From: Amycolatopsis acidiphila
GTDB taxonomy: Bacteria; Actinomycetota; Actinomycetes; Mycobacteriales; Pseudonocardiaceae
Direction: 5' to 3'
Assembly (NCBI RefSeq): GCF_021391495.1
Contig: NZ_CP090063.1
Coordinates: forward strand, 930,001-994,000
Length of the DNA stretch: 64,000 nt
The position numbers and the translations under genes were made by a program. How positions within the stretch are numbered: the first letter of the stretch is position 1; each line of letters starts with the position of its first letter. Below, one piece after another: positions 21,419-30,303 of the stretch. The notes below the pieces were generated by a model. That model was not told the DNA's origin, ran no database searches, and saw only the letters and a list, made by a program, of their open reading frames with translations.

Positions 21419-23029
21419 ATGGCCGTCACTGCTGACACCTGGTTCACGCCACTGACCCCGCTGGCCTTCCTCGAGCGCTCGGCGGAGGTCTTTCCCGACA
21501 AGGAAGCCATCGTCTACGGCGACCGCCGGGTCACCTACCGCGAGTTCGCGGCCGAGGCGACCCGCGTGGCACACGCCCTGCGCGCGTCCGGCGTCGAGCC
21601 GGGCGACCGGGTCGCCTATCTGTTGCCGAACATCCCGGAGATGCTGGTCGCGCACTTCGCGGTGCCGCTCGCCGGCGCGGTGCTGGTCGCGATCAACACC
21701 CGGCTCGCGCCCGCCGAGGTCCGCCACATCCTCCACCATTCCGGGGCGAAGGTGCTGGTAGTCGACGCCGGGCTGCACTCCTCGCTGGCCGCGGACCTGC
21801 CGGTCGCCGAGGTCGTCACCGTCACCGACCCGGCTTCCGGTGCCACGCCCGACCCCGCCGTCGGCGGCATCTCCTACCCGGACCTGCTCGCCCGCGGCGA
21901 CGACGCACCGTTGCCGTGGACGGTCGCGGACGAGCGCGGCACGATCTCGATCAATTACACCTCGGGCACGACCGGGCAACCCAAAGGTGTGATGTACCAC
22001 CACCGCGGCGCCTACCTGAACTCGCTGGCCGAGATCATCCACTCCCGGCACACGCCCGAGTCGCGGTACCTGTGGACCCTGCCGATGTTCCACTGCAACG
22101 GCTGGTGCACCGCCTGGGCGGTGACGGCGATCGGCGGCACGCACGTGTGCCTGCGCGCCGTGGACGCCACGGAGATCTGGCGGCTGCTGGAGACCGAGGG
22201 CATCACGCACCTCAACGGCGCCCCGACGGTGCTGGTGACCATCGCCAGCCACGAGGGCGCGCACCCGCTGCCGCACGAGGTGGTCGTGACCACCGCGGGC
22301 GCGCCGCCGTCGCCGACGGTCATCCGGCGGATGTCGGAGCTGGGCGCCCGCCTGACGCACGTCTACGGCCTGACCGAGACGTACGGCCCGTACAGCGTGT
22401 GCGAGCCGCAGGATGGCTGGCTCAAGCTGGACATCGCCGAGCGCAGCAAGGTCATGTCCCGCCAGGGCGTCGGGATGATCGTCACCGACGGTGTGCGCGT
22501 GGTCGACGAGGAGATGCGCGACGTGCCGCGGGACGGCGCCACCATGGGCGAGGTGGTGATGCGGGGCAACAACGTCATGGCGGGCTACTTCGACGACCCC
22601 GAGGCGACGGAGAAGGCCTTCCGCGGCGGCTGGTTCCACTCCGGCGACCTCGGCGTGTGGCATCCCGACGGCTACATCCAGCTGCGCGACCGCGCGAAGG
22701 ACATCATCGTCTCGGGTGGCGAGAACATCTCGACGATCGAGGTCGAGGCGGCGCTGGACTCGCATCCGGCGGTGCTCGAGGTCGCCGTCGTCGGGGTGCC
22801 GCACGAGAAGTGGGGCGAGCGGCCCAAGGCGTACGTGGTGCTGCGGGCGGGCGAGTCGCTGTCCGCCGAGGAGCTGCAGGAGCACGCGCGCGGGCAGATC
22901 GCCAGGTACAAGGTGCCGGAGGCGGTCGAGTTCGTCGCCGAGCTGCCCAAGACCTCGACGGGCAAGATCCAGAAGTTCCAGCTGCGGGAACGCGACTGGG
23001 CAGGCCACGAAGGCCGGATCCAGGGCTAG
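21419..23029 (+). CDS. Acyl-CoA synthetase (AMP-forming, fatty-acid type)
   Basis: The 536-residue enzyme of the ANL superfamily activates a carboxylate as acyl-AMP and then as acyl-CoA. The P-loop-like motif YTSGTTGQPKG (about residues 180-190), the Y-G-L-T-E-T motif, GWFHSGDLGVWHPDG and the C-terminal lysine motif KTSTGKIQKFQLRE are all intact. The sequence resembles medium/long-chain fatty-acid or cinnamate-type ligases. It is the third gene after MaoC and DUF2332. Its TAG stop (23027-23029) is part of the CTAG that flanks a small mobile element. Confidence 0.92.
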   Translation: MAVTADTWFTPLTPLAFLERSAEVFPDKEAIVYGDRRVTYREFAAEATRVAHALRASGVEPGDRVAYLLPNIPEMLVAHFAVPLAGAVLVAINTRLAPAEVRHILHHSGAKVLVVDAGLHSSLAADLPVAEVVTVTDPASGATPDPAVGGISYPDLLARGDDAPLPWTVADERGTISINYTSGTTGQPKGVMYHHRGAYLNSLAEIIHSRHTPESRYLWTLPMFHCNGWCTAWAVTAIGGTHVCLRAVDATEIWRLLETEGITHLNGAPTVLVTIASHEGAHPLPHEVVVTTAGAPPSPTVIRRMSELGARLTHVYGLTETYGPYSVCEPQDGWLKLDIAERSKVMSRQGVGMIVTDGVRVVDEEMRDVPRDGATMGEVVMRGNNVMAGYFDDPEATEKAFRGGWFHSGDLGVWHPDGYIQLRDRAKDIIVSGGENISTIEVEAALDSHPAVLEVAVVGVPHEKWGERPKAYVVLRAGESLSAEELQEHARGQIARYKVPEAVEFVAELPKTSTGKIQKFQLRERDWAGHEGRIQG

Positions 23030-23095
23030 GGAGCGTCCTCAAAGGCTCAATCGCGCTCTTCACGAAGCCCATCGACCAGCCTTCGAGGACGCTCC
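23030..23095. mobile_element. MITE-like element, short copy (66 bp)
   Basis: The terminal inverted repeats are GGAGCGTCCTCAAAGGCT on the left and its complement with one mismatch on the right. The left flank is CTAG (23026-23029) and the right flank CTGG (23096-23099), which reads as a 4-bp target duplication with one later change. The first 30 bp match the right end and the last 36 bp (33 of 36) match the left end of the element at 27118-27277. The copy is therefore an inverted, internally deleted relative of that one. It has no coding capacity and lies between convergent genes, where it can form a long hairpin and could act as a terminator. Confidence 0.75.
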
Positions 23096-23107
23096 CTGGG
23101 AGCCGTG

Positions 23108-23494
23108 TCAGCAGCGGGGCAGCCGGTCCCAGCCGCGGAGGGTGGCCGCGAGGCCGTCGGTGAGCTCGAGTGTGCCGAACGCCGCGGCGTCCACCCAGCG
23201 GGCGTCCGCGGCGTCGTCGCCCGCGCGCAGCCGGCCGCCGCGCACCTCGCACACGTAGTCGTAGATCTCGTACCGGCCGCGCACGACCATCCCCGCCAGC
23301 GGCCCCGGCCGTACGTCCAGGCCGGTCTCCTCGCGCATCTCGCGCACCACTGCCTGTGCGTCCGTCTCGTCGGGCTCGACCCGCCCGCCCGGCAGCGACC
23401 ACCGGCCCCGGCCCGGGTCGTGCCCCCGCTGGATCACCAGCAGTCGCCCCGCCGCGTCGTGGATGATGCCGCCTACGCAGCGCACCGAAGCCAT
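23108..23494 (-). CDS. Nudix hydrolase
   Basis: The 128-residue protein starts at ATG 23494 (MASVRCVGGI); the frame stays open upstream, but that part has no family similarity. The Nudix box GGRVEPDETDAQAVVREMREE (starting about residue 36) has every conserved Gly, Glu and Arg. Nudix enzymes hydrolyse nucleoside diphosphates linked to another group, and small MutT-like ones clean up oxidised nucleotides or other compounds. The substrate is unknown. It is convergent with the synthetase gene. Confidence 0.92.
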   Translation of the reverse strand: MASVRCVGGIIHDAAGRLLVIQRGHDPGRGRWSLPGGRVEPDETDAQAVVREMREETGLDVRPGPLAGMVVRGRYEIYDYVCEVRGGRLRAGDDAADARWVDAAAFGTLELTDGLAATLRGWDRLPRC

Positions 23495-23677
23495 AACGCC
23501 AGCGTAACGCGCGGACGTAGTGCGCAAGGTGTACACGGAGAGTAGCCATGCGGTAAGATCGCAGGCGGACACTGACCCAAGCGCGGGACTTTTCTCCCGT
23601 AACGGAGCGCAGTGCGGTACAACGTTACTGGTGAGCTTGCTAGACCGATGCCGGAGCAAGAGACGGGATTGATCGTT

Positions 23678-23842
23678 GTGAACGCGAAGAAACTAGCCGG
23701 ACTCGTGGGTATCGCGTTGGTCTTGTTCTTCGTGATCGCCCAACCAGGCCAGGCGGCGAACCTCGTGGGCAACATCATCAGCTTCCTGCGCACGTCGGCC
23801 GAAGCGGTGATCACCTTCGTCAGCAACGTGTTCAACTCGTAG
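23678..23842 (+). CDS. Small secreted or membrane protein (54 residues) paired with PH-domain protein
   Basis: The frame is open from GTG 23612, but GC at third positions is low until GTG 23678, so I take 23678 as the start (VNAKKLAGLVGI). ATG 23648 is another option. The product has a hydrophobic helix (about residues 7-22) ending in AQPGQAA, which could be a signal-peptide cleavage site, then an amphipathic helix NLVGNIISFLRTSAEAVITFVSNVF. It ends 5 bp before the PH-domain gene. A -10-like TAAGAT at 23552-23557 lies upstream. The function is unknown. Confidence 0.7.
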   Translation: MNAKKLAGLVGIALVLFFVIAQPGQAANLVGNIISFLRTSAEAVITFVSNVFNS

Positions 23843-23847
23843 GCGCC

Positions 23848-24408
23848 GTGTTCGCCCCCCGGGATCCCGACGAGTACCTGCTCGACACCGAGCGGCGCGT
23901 CGTCCGGATCCGACGGCACTGGGCGACGCTGGCGTGGGACACCTTCGAGGCGGTCGCGCTGCTGGCGATCTGCGTGATGGTGTCCTACCTCCTGCCGCCG
24001 TCGCTCTACGTCGTGCAGAACGTGTTGTGGTACGCGGCGTTGCTCGTGGTGCTGCACTACGCGTACAAGGTCATGGAGTGGTGGGTCGAGCGGCTGGTGG
24101 TCACGGACAAGCGGTTCGTGCTGACCAGCGGCGTCTTCACCACGAAGGTCGCGATGATGCCGATCAGCAAGGTCACCGACCTGACCTACGAGCGCACCGC
24201 GTGGGGCAGGCTGTTCGGGTACGGCACCGTCGTGGTCGAGTCCGCCGGGCAGATCCAGGCGCTCAACCGGATCGACTTCCTGCCCCATCCCGAGGACTTC
24301 TACGACGTCATCTCGGAACTGGTCTTCGGCGACAAGCAGAAGCAGAGCGAGCGCTTCTCCATGATCAAGGCCCAGCGCCTTGCCCGCGGCAAGAAGATGG
24401 TCGGCTGA
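23848..24408 (+). CDS. Bacterial PH-domain membrane protein (YdbS-like)
   Basis: The 186-residue protein has two membrane helices (about residues 30-48 and 55-73) after a short basic N terminus (DTERRVVRIRRHW). A bacterial PH-like domain (bPH2) follows, about 75-165, with VTDKRFVLTSGVFTTKVAMM, a typical YdbS/YdbT core. The C terminus is basic. It starts with GTG 5 bp after the small protein gene, so the two are likely co-translated and may form a complex. Its cellular role is unknown. Confidence 0.85.
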   Translation: MFAPRDPDEYLLDTERRVVRIRRHWATLAWDTFEAVALLAICVMVSYLLPPSLYVVQNVLWYAALLVVLHYAYKVMEWWVERLVVTDKRFVLTSGVFTTKVAMMPISKVTDLTYERTAWGRLFGYGTVVVESAGQIQALNRIDFLPHPEDFYDVISELVFGDKQKQSERFSMIKAQRLARGKKMVG

Positions 24409-24446
24409 CGGGGGCCTTTCCTGTCGCATGAGACAGAATGGGTCCG

Positions 24447-25307
24447 ATGCGCATCGACCTGCACACCCATTCGACCGTCTCCGATGGCACGGACAGCCCA
24501 GCCGAACTCGTCCAGGTGGCCGCACAGGCCGGCCTGGACGCCGTCGCGCTGACCGATCACGACACCACCGCCGGGTGGGACGCCGCGACCGCCGCGCTAC
24601 CCGCCGGGCTGACCCTGGTGCCCGGCGCCGAGCTGTCCTGCGTGAGCCACCACGACGGCCCCCGCGGGATCAGCGTGCACCTGCTGGCCTACCTGTTCGA
24701 CCCGACCTCGCCCGCGATCGTCACCGAGCAGCAGCGGCTGCGCATCGAGCGGCGGACCCGGCTGCGCTCGATGGCCGACCGGATGGCCGCCGACGGCCTG
24801 CCGGTGGACGCCGACGAGATCATGGGCCTGCTGCCCGCCGACTCCCCGGCCGGGCGCCCGCACCTGGCGCAGGCGCTGGTGCGCGCCGGGCTCGTGTCGA
24901 CCGTCGACGAGGCTTTCGCCGAGTATCTGGGCAACGGCCGTGGCTACTACCTGCCACGCCAGGACACCCCCGTCGAGGACGCGATCGACATGATCGCCGC
25001 CGCCGGCGGGGTCACCGTCTTCGCGCATCCCTTCGCCCGCAGCCGTGGCCGGATCGTCTCGGTCGACACCCTCGCGGCACTCGCCGAGCACGGCCTGACC
25101 GGCGTCGAGGTCGACCACCCCAACCACGACGAGGAGACCCGGGGCCAGCTGCGCGGGCTCGCCCGCGAGCTGAACCTCGTGCCGACCGGGTCCAGCGACT
25201 ACCACGGCACCAACAAGACGATTCCGATCGGCGCCGAGACGACACCGCCCGAGTCGCTCGAGGCGCTCGTCGAGAAGGCGTCCGGCGCGCAGGTCGCGGT
25301 GGGCTGA
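24447..25307 (+). CDS. PHP-domain phosphoesterase (YciV/RNase AM-like)
   Basis: The 286-residue metal-dependent phosphoesterase starts MRIDLHTHSTVSDGTDS (ATG 24447; another ATG at 24438 is in frame). PHP motifs are complete: DLHTHS, TDHDTT, GAELSC, VFAHPFARS and GSSDYHG supply the His and Asp ligands for the trinuclear metal site. Homologues of this length hydrolyse 3',5'-bisphosphonucleotides or degrade RNA from the 5' end. It ends directly before the MarC gene. Confidence 0.9.
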   Translation: MRIDLHTHSTVSDGTDSPAELVQVAAQAGLDAVALTDHDTTAGWDAATAALPAGLTLVPGAELSCVSHHDGPRGISVHLLAYLFDPTSPAIVTEQQRLRIERRTRLRSMADRMAADGLPVDADEIMGLLPADSPAGRPHLAQALVRAGLVSTVDEAFAEYLGNGRGYYLPRQDTPVEDAIDMIAAAGGVTVFAHPFARSRGRIVSVDTLAALAEHGLTGVEVDHPNHDEETRGQLRGLARELNLVPTGSSDYHGTNKTIPIGAETTPPESLEALVEKASGAQVAVG

Positions 25308-25925
25308 GTGGCGTTCTTCGATGCGGGCGTGTTCGTCGAGGCGACGATCACGCTGGTGGTGATCATGGACCCGCCGGGCACGGTCCCGGTGTTCCTCAGC
25401 CTGGTCGGGCGCAAGTCACCGGACGCCCGCGCCCGCGCCGCCCGCCAAGCCGTGCTGGTGTCGCTGCTGGTCATCGCCCTGTTCGCGGTCGCGGGCCAGG
25501 CGATCCTCGCCTACCTCGGCATCGGCATCCCCGCGCTGCAGGGCGCGGGCGGCCTGCTCCTGCTGCTCATCGCGCTGGATCTGCTGACCGGCAAGGGCGG
25601 TACCGAGCCCGAAGCGGTCGAGGACGTCAACGTCGCACTGGTCCCGCTGGGCACCCCGCTGCTCGCCGGTCCCGGCGCGATCGCCGCGACCATCGTGTTC
25701 GTGCGCGAGGCGCACGGGCACTTCGGCGCGTACCTCGCGCTCGCGCTGGCGATCGTCGTGGTGCACCTGTTCATCTACCTGTGCATGCGGTACTCCGGTC
25801 TGGTCATCCGGCTGATCAGGGAGTCCGGCATCCTGCTGCTCGCGAAGATCGCCGGTCTGCTGCTGGCCGCGATCGCGGTCGAGCTCATCGCGAACTCCGT
25901 GCGCGGGTTCGTCGCCGGCGGCTGA
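25308..25925 (+). CDS. MarC-family integral membrane protein
   Basis: The 205-residue protein begins with GTG immediately after the PHP stop codon. It has six hydrophobic segments, and MDPPGTVPVFLSLVG in the first loop is the family hallmark. MarC proteins are widespread and were once linked to multiple antibiotic resistance, but their function remains uncertain. It is co-transcribed with the PHP gene and probably with the nuclease gene downstream. Confidence 0.9.
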   Translation: MAFFDAGVFVEATITLVVIMDPPGTVPVFLSLVGRKSPDARARAARQAVLVSLLVIALFAVAGQAILAYLGIGIPALQGAGGLLLLLIALDLLTGKGGTEPEAVEDVNVALVPLGTPLLAGPGAIAATIVFVREAHGHFGAYLALALAIVVVHLFIYLCMRYSGLVIRLIRESGILLLAKIAGLLLAAIAVELIANSVRGFVAGG

Positions 25926-25939
25926 GTACGGTGGGGGCC

Positions 25940-26800
25940 GTGGTGGAACAACTGGGGTTCGAGTTCACGGTGGAGCCGCGGCGCCTGACCAAGGTCAGCC
26001 CGGCAAGGCTGGCCACGTTCGCGGACTGCCCGCGGCGGTACCGGCTCTCCTACCTGCAACGGCCCACGCCGACGCGCACCGGCCCGTGGGCGCACAGCAC
26101 GCTCGGCGCGGTGGTGCACAACGCCCTGCGCGCGCTGTTCGAGCTGCCGCCCGAGCGCCGCTCGCCGATCCGCGCCGCGCAGCTGCTGAGCGAGCACTGG
26201 CAGGACGCGGGCTTCGCGGACGCCGAGCAGGCGGCGACGTACCGGGACCGGGCGAAGACCTGGATCATGGAGTACGTCGAGCACAACGACGTCTCCACGA
26301 CGCCGATCGGGCTCGAGCGCTGGGTTTCCGCGCCGGTGAACCCCGAGCCGGGGAAGCCGCCGTCGATGATCATCGAAGGCCGCGCGGACCGGATCGACGA
26401 GCGCGGCGCCGAACTGGTCATCGTCGACTACAAGACCGGGCGGCGGCAGCCCGACGAGTACGAGGCGCGCAGCTCGCAAGCGCTTGCCATGTATGCCGTC
26501 GCGGCCACCCGGACGCTGCGCCGCCCGTGCCACCGCGTCGAGCTGCACCACCTGCCCACCGGCACGGTCGCGGCCGCCGAGCACACCGACGAAAGCCTGC
26601 GGCGGCACCTCGCCCGCGCGGAGGAGACGGCCGAGGATCTGCGCGTCGCCACGGATACGCTGACCGCAGGCGGAGACGGGCAGGTCCTGTTTCCGGTCAA
26701 CGTCGGCACGCGCTGCTCGTGGTGCGACTTCCGGCCGAGCTGCCCGGAGGGGCAGGCGGCCGCGCCGGCGGCGAAGCCCTGGGAGCTGCTGGCGCCGTGA
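25940..26800 (+). CDS. RecB-like PD-(D/E)XK nuclease with iron-sulfur cysteines
   Basis: The 286-residue protein is a Cas4/RecB-type single-strand nuclease. I take GTG 25940; nearby GTGs at 25931 and 25943 are alternatives. The first cluster cysteine is in FADCPRRYRLSYL (about residue 32). The nuclease core reads IEGRADRID...LVIVDYKTGRR (about 137-170). Three further cysteines lie in TRCSWCDFRPSCPEG (about 256-270), so a [4Fe-4S] cluster is likely. It is not next to CRISPR genes, so a role in general DNA repair is more likely. Confidence 0.88.
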   Translation: MVEQLGFEFTVEPRRLTKVSPARLATFADCPRRYRLSYLQRPTPTRTGPWAHSTLGAVVHNALRALFELPPERRSPIRAAQLLSEHWQDAGFADAEQAATYRDRAKTWIMEYVEHNDVSTTPIGLERWVSAPVNPEPGKPPSMIIEGRADRIDERGAELVIVDYKTGRRQPDEYEARSSQALAMYAVAATRTLRRPCHRVELHHLPTGTVAAAEHTDESLRRHLARAEETAEDLRVATDTLTAGGDGQVLFPVNVGTRCSWCDFRPSCPEGQAAAPAAKPWELLAP

Positions 26801-27117
26801 GCACGGAAGAACTTCGGGTTCCTCCCGTCGAGGAGGACCGGTCCCGCCGGGGCCGGTGGTGGCGTGGGCTGACGGGCTCGCTCGCCGCGGGTCTGGCGGG
26901 GCTGGCCGTGATCGTGCTGGGCGCGGGCCTGCTGTGCCTGCTGCTCGGCGCGCCGGGGCCCGGGGTGGCGATGCTGGTCGGGCACCCGTTGGCGGCGGCG
27001 ATCGCGCTGGTGGCCCAGCGGTTCGCCGACCGGCGCGAAGGCCCGGTCGCGGGGCTCGCCGGACTCGTGGTGGTCGTGGTGCTGCTCGCCGCGTTGTGGC
27101 TGTTCTGGTGGGGCTAG
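26797..27117 (+). CDS. Small multi-helix membrane protein
   Basis: The 106-residue protein starts with GTG overlapping the nuclease stop (GTGA). After a polar, Arg-rich N terminus (about 1-25) there are three hydrophobic segments (about 27-50, 54-70 and 84-104). The codon use fits the region. I do not recognise the family. Its TAG stop (27115-27117) is formed by the CTAG that flanks the mobile element. Confidence 0.75.
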   Translation: MSTEELRVPPVEEDRSRRGRWWRGLTGSLAAGLAGLAVIVLGAGLLCLLLGAPGPGVAMLVGHPLAAAIALVAQRFADRREGPVAGLAGLVVVVVLLAALWLFWWG

Positions 27118-27277
27118 GGGGTGTCCTCAAAGGCTGGTCGATGGGCTTCGTGATCCAGGTGGTTCCTGGTGGTGCCAGGGATTCGCCCTCGTACCGGGTT
27201 GTACTCGGGTGAATTCCCGGTGCCGTCCAGGGGCCGCCTGGGCGCGGAGAGCGCGATTGAGCCTTTGAGGACGCTCC
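27118..27277. mobile_element. MITE-like element, long copy (160 bp)
   Basis: The element is flanked on both sides by CTAG (27114-27117 and 27278-27281), a perfect 4-bp direct repeat. Its ends are imperfect inverted repeats: the left one is GGGGTGTCCTCAAAGGCT and the right one is the complement of GGAGCGTCCTCAAAGGCT (16 of 18). The inside contains smaller hairpins (CCTGG...CCAGG and ACCGGG...CCCGGT) but no plausible gene. A shortened, inverted copy lies at 23030-23095. Four-base CTAG/YTAR duplications are typical of IS5-type transposition, so the element was probably moved by such a transposase in trans; none is in this window. Confidence 0.78.
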
Positions 27278-28126
27278 CTAGAGCCAGGAGCGCCAGGCGG
27301 GCAGCAGGACGCCCAGCAGGCCCTTCGGGTTCTCGATGTTGGGGGAGTGCGCCGCGTGCGGCACGAGCGCGAACGGCGCGTTCAGCCGTGCGGCCATGTC
27401 CTGCTGTGCAGCCACGCTCCACGCGTCGTCGCCCTCGCCCGCGACGACCAGGGACGGCACGTTCCGCGCGCGCAGCGCCTCGACGAGGTCCGGTTCGTAG
27501 CGCAGGCCGTCGGCCATGCCGAGCAGCCCGGCTGGGCTGGACGAGACGAACCGGTGCCGGTAGAACGCCTTGAGCTCGGCCGGAAGGGCCGTCCACGACG
27601 GGAACCGCTCGTTCATCTGCTCACGCACGCCGTACGCGGCTTCGATGCCTTGCTTGCGCAGCAACGGTTCCCCGAGACTGAGCGCGGTGCGCCGCGGCCC
27701 CTCGGGGAGCGCGGACGGGCCGGTGTCCATCAGGGTGAGCCCGGCGACGCCCGCTCCCGCCAGCACGGCGGCGCGGGCGACCAGACCGCCGTAGGAGTGC
27801 CCGAGCAGTAGTACCGGCTTTCCTTCTGTCGCGAGGTGTTCGACCGTCGCGGCGACGACCTGGCCGAGCGCGGCGGGCAGGTAGGCGGACTCGTCGTCCG
27901 GGCCGGGGGACTCGAACTGTCCCGGCAGGTCGATCGCGACCGCGCGGAACCCGTCGGCGGCGATGTCGTCCAGCAGCGGGGCGAAGTCCTCTTTGGAACC
28001 CGTGTACCCCGGAACCAGCAGCGCGGTGGCCTTTCCGGCTCCCCTGGTGCTCAGTGCGGCGATCGGACCGTACGGCCCGGGCAGCTCGGCGCGCTCCGCG
28101 TCGTGCACCGTGAGCGGGCCGGTCAT
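27278..28126 (-). CDS. Alpha/beta hydrolase
   Basis: The 282-residue alpha/beta-hydrolase-fold enzyme starts at ATG 28126, overlapping the upstream propeller gene by 4 bp (ATGA). The nucleophile elbow is GHSYGG (about residues 97-102), the oxyanion region LVPGYTGSKEDF is near 40, the acid is probably in VAGEGDDAWS, and the catalytic His is in VPHAAHSPNIEN. The substrate is unknown. The gene's TAG stop is supplied by the right CTAG flank of the mobile element. Confidence 0.88.
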   Translation of the reverse strand: MTGPLTVHDAERAELPGPYGPIAALSTRGAGKATALLVPGYTGSKEDFAPLLDDIAADGFRAVAIDLPGQFESPGPDDESAYLPAALGQVVAATVEHLATEGKPVLLLGHSYGGLVARAAVLAGAGVAGLTLMDTGPSALPEGPRRTALSLGEPLLRKQGIEAAYGVREQMNERFPSWTALPAELKAFYRHRFVSSSPAGLLGMADGLRYEPDLVEALRARNVPSLVVAGEGDDAWSVAAQQDMAARLNAPFALVPHAAHSPNIENPKGLLGVLLPAWRSWL

Positions 28127-30303
28127 CTGAGCGCGGCCAGCGTCGCGCCGCGCTGCTCCAGCAACACGGGGCCGAGCGCGGCAAGGCGGACCGGACCGGT
28201 GTAGCCGTGGCGGTCGACGCCGATCGTGCGGATCGTCGAGCCGTCCTCTTCGTTCAGCACGGCCAGGCCGCCCTGGATGGGCACCACGAGCTGGTGGTCG
28301 AACAGGACGCCCGGCCCCAGCGCCGAGCTGAGCGTCCACTTCGGAGTGAGCGTGTCCCGCGCGAAGGCCATCAGCTTGGAGCCGGTGAACCAGTAGACGT
28401 TGGCCGCGGTCGACGACGTCGCCGGGACGCCGCCCGCCGGGTCGTGGTCGAGGTCGCTCGCCGGCAGGTCGAGCGGGTACGCCGACAGCTCGGCGCCGTC
28501 CGGGCCGTAGAGCACGAGCTGCTTCTGGTCGGGCATCGCGACCGCGACGTAGTCGCCGGACATCGCGACCATGCGGGCGTGGTAGCCGGGAAGGATCTCG
28601 CTGAACGACACCTGGGGGCTGTCGGATTCCTTGGGCGCGGCGCGGAAGACGGTGATCCGGTCGCCGGGGTCGTTCGGGCAGCGCTCGACGACGCCGACGC
28701 GGCTGGACGCCATCGCGATGGAGCCGTAGGTGCAGCCGACGCGGGGCTGCTTGTCGGGGTTGACGAGTGCGGGCACCTTGCCGTACTCGGCGGTCTCGAC
28801 CAGGTCGTCGCGCCAGGTGTTGAGCAGCGTGGTGCCGAACGCGGTGACGTAGGCGCCGTCGCTGACCAGGCCGGTGCCGAGCGGGGCACTGCCGGTGCGC
28901 TGCGCCATGCGGTGCCCGGTGCCCGGGTCGAGGGCGACGACCTCGCTGCAGCCGGTCTCGCCGTTGACGCCGTCATTGCGGTACAGGGCGACCGCGCGGG
29001 CCCAGCCCTCGGCGGCGGTGCACAGCGGGAGGTCGCGGGAGTAGCGCCAGCGCACCTGGCCGGTGAGCGGGTCGCGGCCGTCCAGCTCGCCCCCGTTGGC
29101 GGTGACAGCGGCGTTGCCCTCGGCGATCGGCACCGGGGCGGCCGCGCTGGGGGCCTGCCAGAGTTCGCTGAGCTGCGCGGGGACGGCGGTCGCGGCCTCG
29201 GGCAGGGCCGGCCCGGGGTCGGCGGTCTGCGAGACCGTGGCGCGGCTTTCGCTGTTCGCCCAGACGGTGACCCCGGCGGCGACGGCGATCACCGCGATGA
29301 CCGCCGCGATCACCCGGTCGCGGGGCCGGTTCCACGGCGACCGGCGGTCCCGCTTGACGACGGTGTGCCGGCGAGGCGGCCCCAGCGGAGGCTTCCCGGC
29401 GCCCGCGAGCACGTCCTCGACGCCGATGATCACGGTGGTCTCGGAGTCGTCGGCCGGCCGGCGATGCCGCCCGCCCCGGACAGGCGGCCGTGCGGGGCCG
29501 CCGTTCTCGGGGTCGCGTTCGTACGTGTATCGCCCCGAGTCCGCCCGGAAGGTCCAGCTCCCGGTGCTCTCGGCCCGGCTCTCGGGCGGGACCGCGGAGG
29601 CGGTGAGTGGCGGGGTGGTTTGTGCCGGGGCTGCGGGTGGCGGGGTGGTGACCGCCGGCTCGGTGGTGGCCGAGGTGGCCGCCGAGTCGGAGGTGGCCGC
29701 CGGTGGTGATGCGGGGCTGCCCGCTGGCGGGGTGGCTTGGGCCGGGGCTGCGGGTGGCGGCGTGGTGCCCGCCGATGGTGGCGTGGGGCTGTCCGGTGGT
29801 TCGGGAGTGGCCGGAGTGGCGCACGCGGGTGGCGGCGGGGTGGCCGAGGTACCCGGGACCGCCTCCTCGGCGGGTGCGGGACTGCCCTCTTCGGCAGGTG
29901 CAGAGGCTTGAGCTGGGCCTTCGCCCGCGGTGGTGCCGCCAGTGCCCTCGGGGGCGCGCTGCGCTTGAGCCGCGTCAGCAGCCGCCGGGCCGTCAGCAGC
30001 AACCGCGCCGCTTTCATCGGCCGCCGGGCCATGACCCACCGCGGGGGGATCGCCATCCGCCGGGCCATCGGCCGCCGGGCCATGACCCGCCGCCGCGTCG
30101 TCGGGCACGGCCGGGGCATCGACCGAAGCCTCGCCGCCAGCGGGCGTCGAAGCGTCACCCTCCGAAGCGCCACCCGTGTTGGCGTCACCCGACCGGGCGG
30201 CGCCCGACACGGCGGAGCCGGAGGCACTCGCCTCCGGCTGCCGGCCTTGCTGCTGCTCCGGGCCCTCGTCGTGCTCCGACGTCCCCTCGACGGGCTCGCT
30301 CAC
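28123..30303 (-). CDS. Membrane-anchored PQQ-like beta-propeller protein with a long disordered N terminus
   Basis: The 726-residue protein has three parts. Residues 1-250 are low-complexity Ala, Pro, Thr, Gly and Asp sequence with repeated units such as PPPAAPAQATPP and GHGPAADG. A basic segment leads to one membrane helix (about 331-349, VIAAVIAVIAVAAGVTVWA). Residues 360-726 are extracytoplasmic and contain propeller-like repeats (DPLTGQVRWRYSRDLP, ALDPGTGHRMAQRTG). It lies immediately downstream of rhlE, like Rv3212. It has a GTG start and the gap to rhlE is 34 bp. Its function is unknown; the propeller may bind envelope material. Confidence 0.82.
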   Translation of the reverse strand: MSEPVEGTSEHDEGPEQQQGRQPEASASGSAVSGAARSGDANTGGASEGDASTPAGGEASVDAPAVPDDAAAGHGPAADGPADGDPPAVGHGPAADESGAVAADGPAAADAAQAQRAPEGTGGTTAGEGPAQASAPAEEGSPAPAEEAVPGTSATPPPPACATPATPEPPDSPTPPSAGTTPPPAAPAQATPPAGSPASPPAATSDSAATSATTEPAVTTPPPAAPAQTTPPLTASAVPPESRAESTGSWTFRADSGRYTYERDPENGGPARPPVRGGRHRRPADDSETTVIIGVEDVLAGAGKPPLGPPRRHTVVKRDRRSPWNRPRDRVIAAVIAVIAVAAGVTVWANSESRATVSQTADPGPALPEAATAVPAQLSELWQAPSAAAPVPIAEGNAAVTANGGELDGRDPLTGQVRWRYSRDLPLCTAAEGWARAVALYRNDGVNGETGCSEVVALDPGTGHRMAQRTGSAPLGTGLVSDGAYVTAFGTTLLNTWRDDLVETAEYGKVPALVNPDKQPRVGCTYGSIAMASSRVGVVERCPNDPGDRITVFRAAPKESDSPQVSFSEILPGYHARMVAMSGDYVAVAMPDQKQLVLYGPDGAELSAYPLDLPASDLDHDPAGGVPATSSTAANVYWFTGSKLMAFARDTLTPKWTLSSALGPGVLFDHQLVVPIQGGLAVLNEEDGSTIRTIGVDRHGYTGPVRLAALGPVLLEQRGATLAALR

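Follow-up and report, generated by a model that had tools for sequence, protein, structure and literature searches.

Between genes of the Amycolatopsis acidiphila chromosome, a 64,000-nucleotide stretch that we refer to as the window (positions 930001-994000 of one 8.18-Mb contig) contains a 160-bp element with inverted ends at 27118-27277 and a 66-bp form of it at 23030-23095. This raises the question of what kind of element this is, how it moves, and which of its parts are maintained. We consider it likely that it is a non-autonomous miniature inverted-repeat transposable element (MITE) with a hairpin structure, that it belongs to a superfamily in the Pseudonocardiaceae mobilised by IS5-family transposases, and that it keeps an RNA hairpin on one strand while exchanging its transposase-specific ends.

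The full-length copy is located on the plus strand, which is also the strand of the RNA hairpin, and was recognised from its 160-bp length, its other copies, its fold, and its score with a covariance model, R1, built from 22 elements. An earlier note on this DNA had described inverted ends that agree at 16 of 18 positions and CTAG on both sides, and both features were confirmed. The left terminal inverted repeat (27118-27135, plus strand) is GGGGTGTCCTCAAAGGCT, and the right one (27260-27277) reads GGAGCGTCCTCAAAGGCT on the minus strand. They enclose a conserved core (27136-27259, plus strand), which is present with other ends in other genera. A stem-loop at the apex, GTAC-CGGGTT-GTAC (27191-27204, plus strand), was recovered from the fold of the window copy and from an alignment of 59 elements, in which 3 of its 4 pairs are invariant and the fourth is G-C or A-U. 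The TAG of the left CTAG (27114-27117) is the stop codon of an upstream plus-strand open reading frame (ORF), and the right CTAG (27278-27281) holds the stop codon of a convergent minus-strand ORF (27278-28339), such that the element sits between 2 convergent ORFs. The predicted folding energy of the 160 bp was -118.5 kcal/mol on the plus strand, compared with a mean of -68.5 kcal/mol for shuffled sequences (z = -12) and -81.0 kcal/mol for the minus strand. The R1 model likewise gave 150.8 bits for the plus strand and 52.9 bits for the minus strand.

The 66-bp derivative lies in the opposite orientation (minus strand), with its deletion junction between 23059 and 23060. When reverse-complemented, bases 131-160 of the long element are identical to the first 30 bp of the derivative (30/30), and bases 6-36 agree with its last part at 97% (33/36 over the full 36 bp). 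The composition given earlier, from the inverted last 30 bp and the first 36 bp of the long copy, was thereby recovered, but the far end is of the GGAGCG rather than the GGGGTG type, and the short copy is therefore not simply this long copy with its middle deleted. It is flanked on the left by CTAG (23026-23029), which contains the stop codon of an ORF at 21419-23029, and on the right by CTGG (23096-23099), so that an exact CTAG on either side is a feature of the long copy only. At the short site, the element is absent from the congeners G004 and G016 (0/66 bases aligned), the remaining congener alignments being unresolved or not spanning the site. The idea that such elements shrink by internal deletion is borne out by the recurrence of short forms in several genomes: nine end pairs 54-102 bp apart were identified, and two more of 54 and 78 bp, with one case in G009. 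Short internal-deletion forms, with about 54-102 bp between the outer ends, were seen in G025, G268, G177, G232, G282, G162, and G009.

Within the window there are 2 copies, as first described, but the genome contains 7, namely 6 full-length copies and the short one. Five of the full-length copies are 98-100% identical, whereas the sixth, of 143 bp, is 85% identical. Four of these copies, with 98-99% identity, sit elsewhere on the chromosome, and together with the stable fold they show that the window element and its short form are genuine and not chance similarities. Single ends also occur at TAG/CTAG with the second end missing at G000:C1:6531484-6531501 and 5942017-5942034 (L134 and L133) in the same genome; these are probably remnants or one-ended deletions.

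The proposed comparison with empty sites was made in congeners. At the site of the long element, G007 reads ...GGTGGGG CTAG CGCC..., with a single CTAG and zero element bases, which supports the reading of the 2 CTAG copies as a target-site duplication, and G018 has a gap with zero element bases. The bases aligned inside the element numbered 5/160 in G016, 13/160 in G014, and 34 in G015. Nine congener loci were aligned and the junction was left unresolved in four; the long insertion is not common to the congeners with a readable junction (4/9 aligned loci). Copies of the element are carried within the genus, for example by G008. The size of 160 bp, which is too short for a transposase gene, the multiple copies, the inverted ends, the empty site, and ends shared with complete IS5 elements (see below) all agree with the assignment to MITEs made in the earlier note. 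In G200, paired elements adjoin each other directly (L314:1589-1915 and L317:1361-1688), and the L317 pair, which has one common TA, looks as if one element had been inserted at the target copy of another.

No match to PF01609 (DDE_Tnp_1), the one transposase family searched, was found in the window, the nearest being located about 150 kb past the window end, and none of the 18 PF01609 loci checked in the genome had an end pair within three mismatches of that of the element. This agrees with the earlier remark that no transposase is nearby, and full-length insertion sequence (IS) elements with the same ends were sought elsewhere. A scan of genome contigs of 84,980 species for TAGGGRGYGTCCTCAAAG yielded 28 loci, 2 of which contained inverted pairs at IS distance, in Actinokineospora auranticolor (938 bp) and Pseudonocardia lacus (1008 bp). 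Both elements are complete: both ends read GGGAGCGTCCTCAAAG directly behind CTA, with 16/16 terminal bases identical and CTA outside both ends, and each contains two overlapping frames that match the IS5-family transposase NF033580 above the cut-off, with the domains PF13340 and PF01609 (DDE type). The ends of the MITE are thus shared with autonomous elements in other genera, and movement in trans by an IS5-type enzyme, as suggested in the earlier note, is probable on this sequence evidence. Elements of the same size were found in Umezawaea tangerina and Nocardia xishanensis, with second ends that fit at 15/17 and 14/17 positions, and copies of the IS ends that were truncated or located at contig or locus ends were found in Saccharopolyspora aridisoli, Pseudonocardia humida, and Actinophytocola xanthii. 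In Actinophytocola xanthii, which holds ends of the same kind, at least 5 of 10 compared MITEs end in GGGCGCGTCCTCAAAG. Any R1 match was obtained in 5/7 of the genomes holding IS ends. The ends CCTCAAAG are those of IS5-type elements, and the same is nearly demonstrated for CCTGTAAGTC, for which an IS is present in G034 and a diverged form in G033; G034 has 11 IS copies with the ends GAGCCTGTCCTGTAAGTC.

Nine of the 28 loci are from bacteria outside the Actinobacteria and were taken for chance, as judged from one of the nine (L153). In Streptomyces noursei (L147, 5642-5659), an end TAGGGAGTGTCCTCAAAG precedes a masked run of N, behind which lies a stretch of TTGCGGACACGACCTAG; this may be a small element of another kind. 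The window element gave no match in plasmids and one Actinophytocola element gave none in phages, each having been searched against that one collection.

The element belongs to a superfamily that is widespread in the family. The 160-bp query matched 12 of 100 relatives, with the more distant matches covering positions ~19-139 and not sharing the ends. With the R1 model (E <= 0.001), 99/249 family genomes from 29/46 genera gave matches when 11 candidates were scored per genome. This number may include some unrelated hairpins because the weak matches in G676 and G677 were mixed, some having family-like cores with quite different ends and others seeming unrelated. When 150 candidates were scored, Actinophytocola xanthii (G682, with matches identical to those of G149) had 49 R1 matches at 48 places and Umezawaea tangerina had 61, many of which represented the second strand of one place. 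A strict core pattern matched only the own genome (G000) and G307, from another order, in a sample of 394 class genomes that contained few family members; it misses G102, a carrier according to R1, and its count is therefore a lower bound. One of its six matches in the own genome (4654145) is no element. The genome G307 contains diverged elements (L221, L223, L225) with the same GGTGGTTCCTGG / CCAGGGGCCGCC arms. Rfam gave no match at E <= 1 for window positions 22500-28000, and 5 matches in eight relatives were all below the gathering score. The sub-threshold matches (mir-2012, MIR8670, and others) were rejected as homology, as these models pair with any long perfect stem.

For the detailed comparison we used 137 distinct elements from 37 genomes, counted after repeat loci had been removed by hand and by flank identity, along with minus-strand matches of the same place. 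An earlier filter had removed elements that scored low in the core or whose ends matched at <14/18 positions, plus seven named loci, some of which were later readmitted to the 137 with boundaries set by the model. The 59-element alignment consists of the first two elements per genome and has 57 distinct rows. The target of the IS5 subgroup is YTAR. In keeping with such a target, the left flank is CTA or TTA in 94 of the 137 elements, the right flank is TAG or TAA in 87, and TA is present on both sides in 80, while the remaining elements deviate.

One feature missing from the earlier note is that, across the superfamily, conservation is lowest in the ends, while the interior is kept. In the 59-element alignment, conservation was 84% at positions 1-8 of the left tip, 62% at positions 9-18, and 77-83% in the interior, and the octamers at positions 9-16 occurred in 65 versions among the 137 elements. 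In all 15 genomes with at least 5 elements each, the inner end segment differed more between the copies of a genome than the stem did, with mean differences per site of 0.204 for the inner segment, 0.101 for the tips, 0.073 for the apex, and 0.050 for the stem. The values in G026 were 0.557 for the inner end segment and 0.074 for the stem. Both ends vary together, as all 18 end pairs have changed on both sides and 99.0% of the end-helix cells are paired. We read this as a transposase-specific segment being exchanged repeatedly while the rest of the element is kept, which would amount to a switch of transposase.

A second feature that the earlier note had missed is a strand-specific signal of RNA pairing. 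When the differences between the 2 arms were counted on the plus strand, as defined by the core, the 137 elements contained 1361 G·U, 189 A·C, and 672 transversion mismatches, and G·U exceeded A·C in 137/137 elements, always in the same direction. In the 59-element alignment, 97.4% of the cells were paired, whereas shuffling left 80.5% and sliding no more than 45.9% of them paired, and 42/55 pairs had changed on both sides. Because the elements are related, private changes were polarised within genomes, using the 15 genomes mentioned above. At Watson-Crick pairs, C>T changes numbered 42 versus 4 for G>A, and A>G 24 versus 7 for T>C, whereas the small sample of unpaired sites gave 8 versus 6 and 7 versus 5, respectively. 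The ratio of wobble-type to breaking transitions was thus 66:11 at paired and 15:11 at unpaired sites (Fisher p = 0.005). Of the changes at G·U pairs, 38/44 restored Watson-Crick pairing, and pairing was kept in 189/195 cells with double changes within a genome. These substitutions at the level of individual copies suggest that selection acts on RNA pairing of one strand. A strand-specific mutation bias was considered as the cause of the G·U excess and rejected, since the unpaired sites, in this small sample, are little biased.

The genes next to the elements were identified with a home-made gene finder based on GC position rather than from annotation. Both neighbours were found for 130/137 elements, of which 54 were convergent, 38 and 25 tandem in the two orders, and 13 divergent, and 79/137 elements abut a stop codon exactly. 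The wobble bias was not weaker beside a neighbour on the other strand (27:2 vs 23:6), and the strand preference therefore seems to be a property of the element and not of the adjoining host gene. This suggests that it arises from a transcript of the element itself, from selection in source copies, or from some strand-specific stage.

In the mechanism that we propose, IS5-family transposases would act in trans and insert the element at YTAR (CTAG in the present case), in many cases exactly at a stop codon. The fixed part, a conserved core, would fold together with the ends into a single RNA hairpin of ~160 nt on a defined strand. The changeable part would be the inner end segment (positions ~9-16), which varies among lineages and among the copies of one genome, and which is matched on both ends, presumably letting different IS5-type transposases move the element. 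As for the role of the hairpin, we tentatively suggest that it may act as an insulator at the transcript level, either a terminator or an RNase III substrate, that makes insertions at gene ends harmless. A more speculative view, and a somewhat less probable one, is that the element is a mobile RNA, for which the selected hairpin would be essential in its own life cycle through an own transcript or RNA stage, independently of host transcription, with the ends as interchangeable adapters, replaced so that whatever IS5-type transposase is available can be recruited.

Several observations weigh against this combined interpretation. Most MITE copies are now without a visible partner. No inverted end pair at IS distance was among those listed for 19 genomes of the genus, including the own, at <=2 mismatches; an IS with the end type CCTGTAAGTC was seen in just 2/10 genomes (G034, and G033 in diverged form), and the examined MITEs of G034 itself bear other ends; and for the end type TATCGAAGTC no pair at IS distance was found in 6 genomes. 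The IS of Umezawaea tangerina (ends GGGAGTGTCCTCAAAGC) differs from the inner ends of the MITEs in that genome, and 2/7 genomes with such IS ends (Saccharopolyspora aridisoli and Nocardia xishanensis) gave no model match. With regard to pairing, the 137 elements are mutually related and hence not independent, the sample of unpaired sites is small, and private transversions that disrupt pairs are not uncommon (53 cells). Direct flips of pairs within genomes, such as G-C to C-G, were of 33 pair types in the ends and 21 in the core, which suggests that conversion from arm to arm acts too. Finally, a sense orientation to host genes was not seen, as tandem neighbours read the hairpin strand 25 times and the other strand 38 times (p = 0.13), which together with the context-independent wobble bias speaks against a simple role in the 3' untranslated region.

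Some of these points would be explained if the element were an ordinary deletion derivative of an IS5 element with no role for RNA, its near-perfect hairpin no more than two joined long ends, its arms held symmetric by conversion and its G·U pairs produced by strand-specific mutation bias. The pair flips fit arm-to-arm conversion better than stepwise drift, the 53 transversion cells break pairs, and the evidence for mobility requires no RNA. However, conversion cannot make G·U outnumber A·C, and a mutation bias should also be visible at unpaired sites, where the small sample gave 8:6 and 7:5 against 42:4 and 24:7 at paired sites. Moreover, A>G is favoured as well as C>T, and when G·U pairs change, Watson-Crick pairing is mostly restored (38/44). 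We regard this explanation as improbable. Better, although still unlikely, is the suggestion that the element is a bidirectional terminator or 3'-end hairpin of use to the host that was spread by transposition, in the manner of a domesticated repeat. The 79/137 elements that start exactly at a stop codon, the 54/130 located between convergent genes, and the window copy between two convergent stop codons would all be expected of such a terminator, but YTAR targets include the stop codons TAG and TAA by themselves, so that location follows from target choice. In addition, the tandem orientation is unbiased towards the hairpin strand (25 vs 38), and the long insertion is unshared with the congeners that have a readable junction (4/9 aligned loci).

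Less probable than either is that the strand asymmetry comes from a stage of single-stranded DNA like that of the IS200/IS605 and REP/RAYT systems, the active strand being tolerant of G·T. DNA folds of 148-nt pieces, which are different stretches on the 2 strands, gave -34.8 kcal/mol for the plus and -27.3 kcal/mol for the minus strand, and the independence of the bias from host gene direction also suits this idea. Yet the IS200/IS605 and REP/RAYT systems are not known to make a target duplication, whereas the element has YTA/TAR flanks, an empty site with one CTAG, and ends that match DDE-type IS5 elements. A hairpin MITE mobilised by IS5-type enzymes and maintained as RNA on one strand is the interpretation that we retain. 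The earlier note was to be given up if only two copies existed and lay at the same place in all relatives, or if the ends matched no transposase element; neither was observed.

The element can be compared with several known systems. Complete elements of the IS5 family (NF033580 type, PF13340 and PF01609) have the same end sequences and CTA/TAG flanks, but the element is too small to hold a transposase, and in other genera the same core carries other ends. Like the REPIN/BIME repeats moved by RAYT, it is a short palindromic non-autonomous repeat. RAYT is a Y1 transposase, whereas the element has a target duplication and its partner with the same ends is of the DDE type. In architecture it resembles the bacterial MITEs ERIC/RU-1, Correia/NEMIS, RUP, and YPAL, which are ~100-200 bp long, mostly have TA-containing ends or a TA-containing duplication, and give transcripts with the predicted structure of a single long stem-loop (PMC2229807, PMC2267715). 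The likeness claimed is one of architecture, and these elements occur in other hosts. Set against them, the Pseudonocardiaceae element has a G·U strand bias in 137/137 copies, a bias measured in this family alone, exchanges its inner end segment while keeping the core, and has IS5-family partners. No paper on such an element in the Pseudonocardiaceae was among the matches listed in searches of the open-licence literature.

Hairpin MITEs with folding transcripts, such as ERIC, Correia, and RUP, are thus a kind already known (PMC2229807, PMC2267715). What is new is the family, the evidence from individual copies that RNA pairing is specific to one strand, and a constant core on which the end specificity is exchanged. 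Bacterial MITEs are usually viewed as passive leftovers that are known by their ends, whereas here the ends change and the inside is kept. It thereby becomes testable whether RNA has a function in hairpin MITEs like ERIC or Correia, and whether a MITE can change its transposase. For the Pseudonocardiaceae, the elements provide a marker family for genomes, as with the 48 places in Actinophytocola xanthii.

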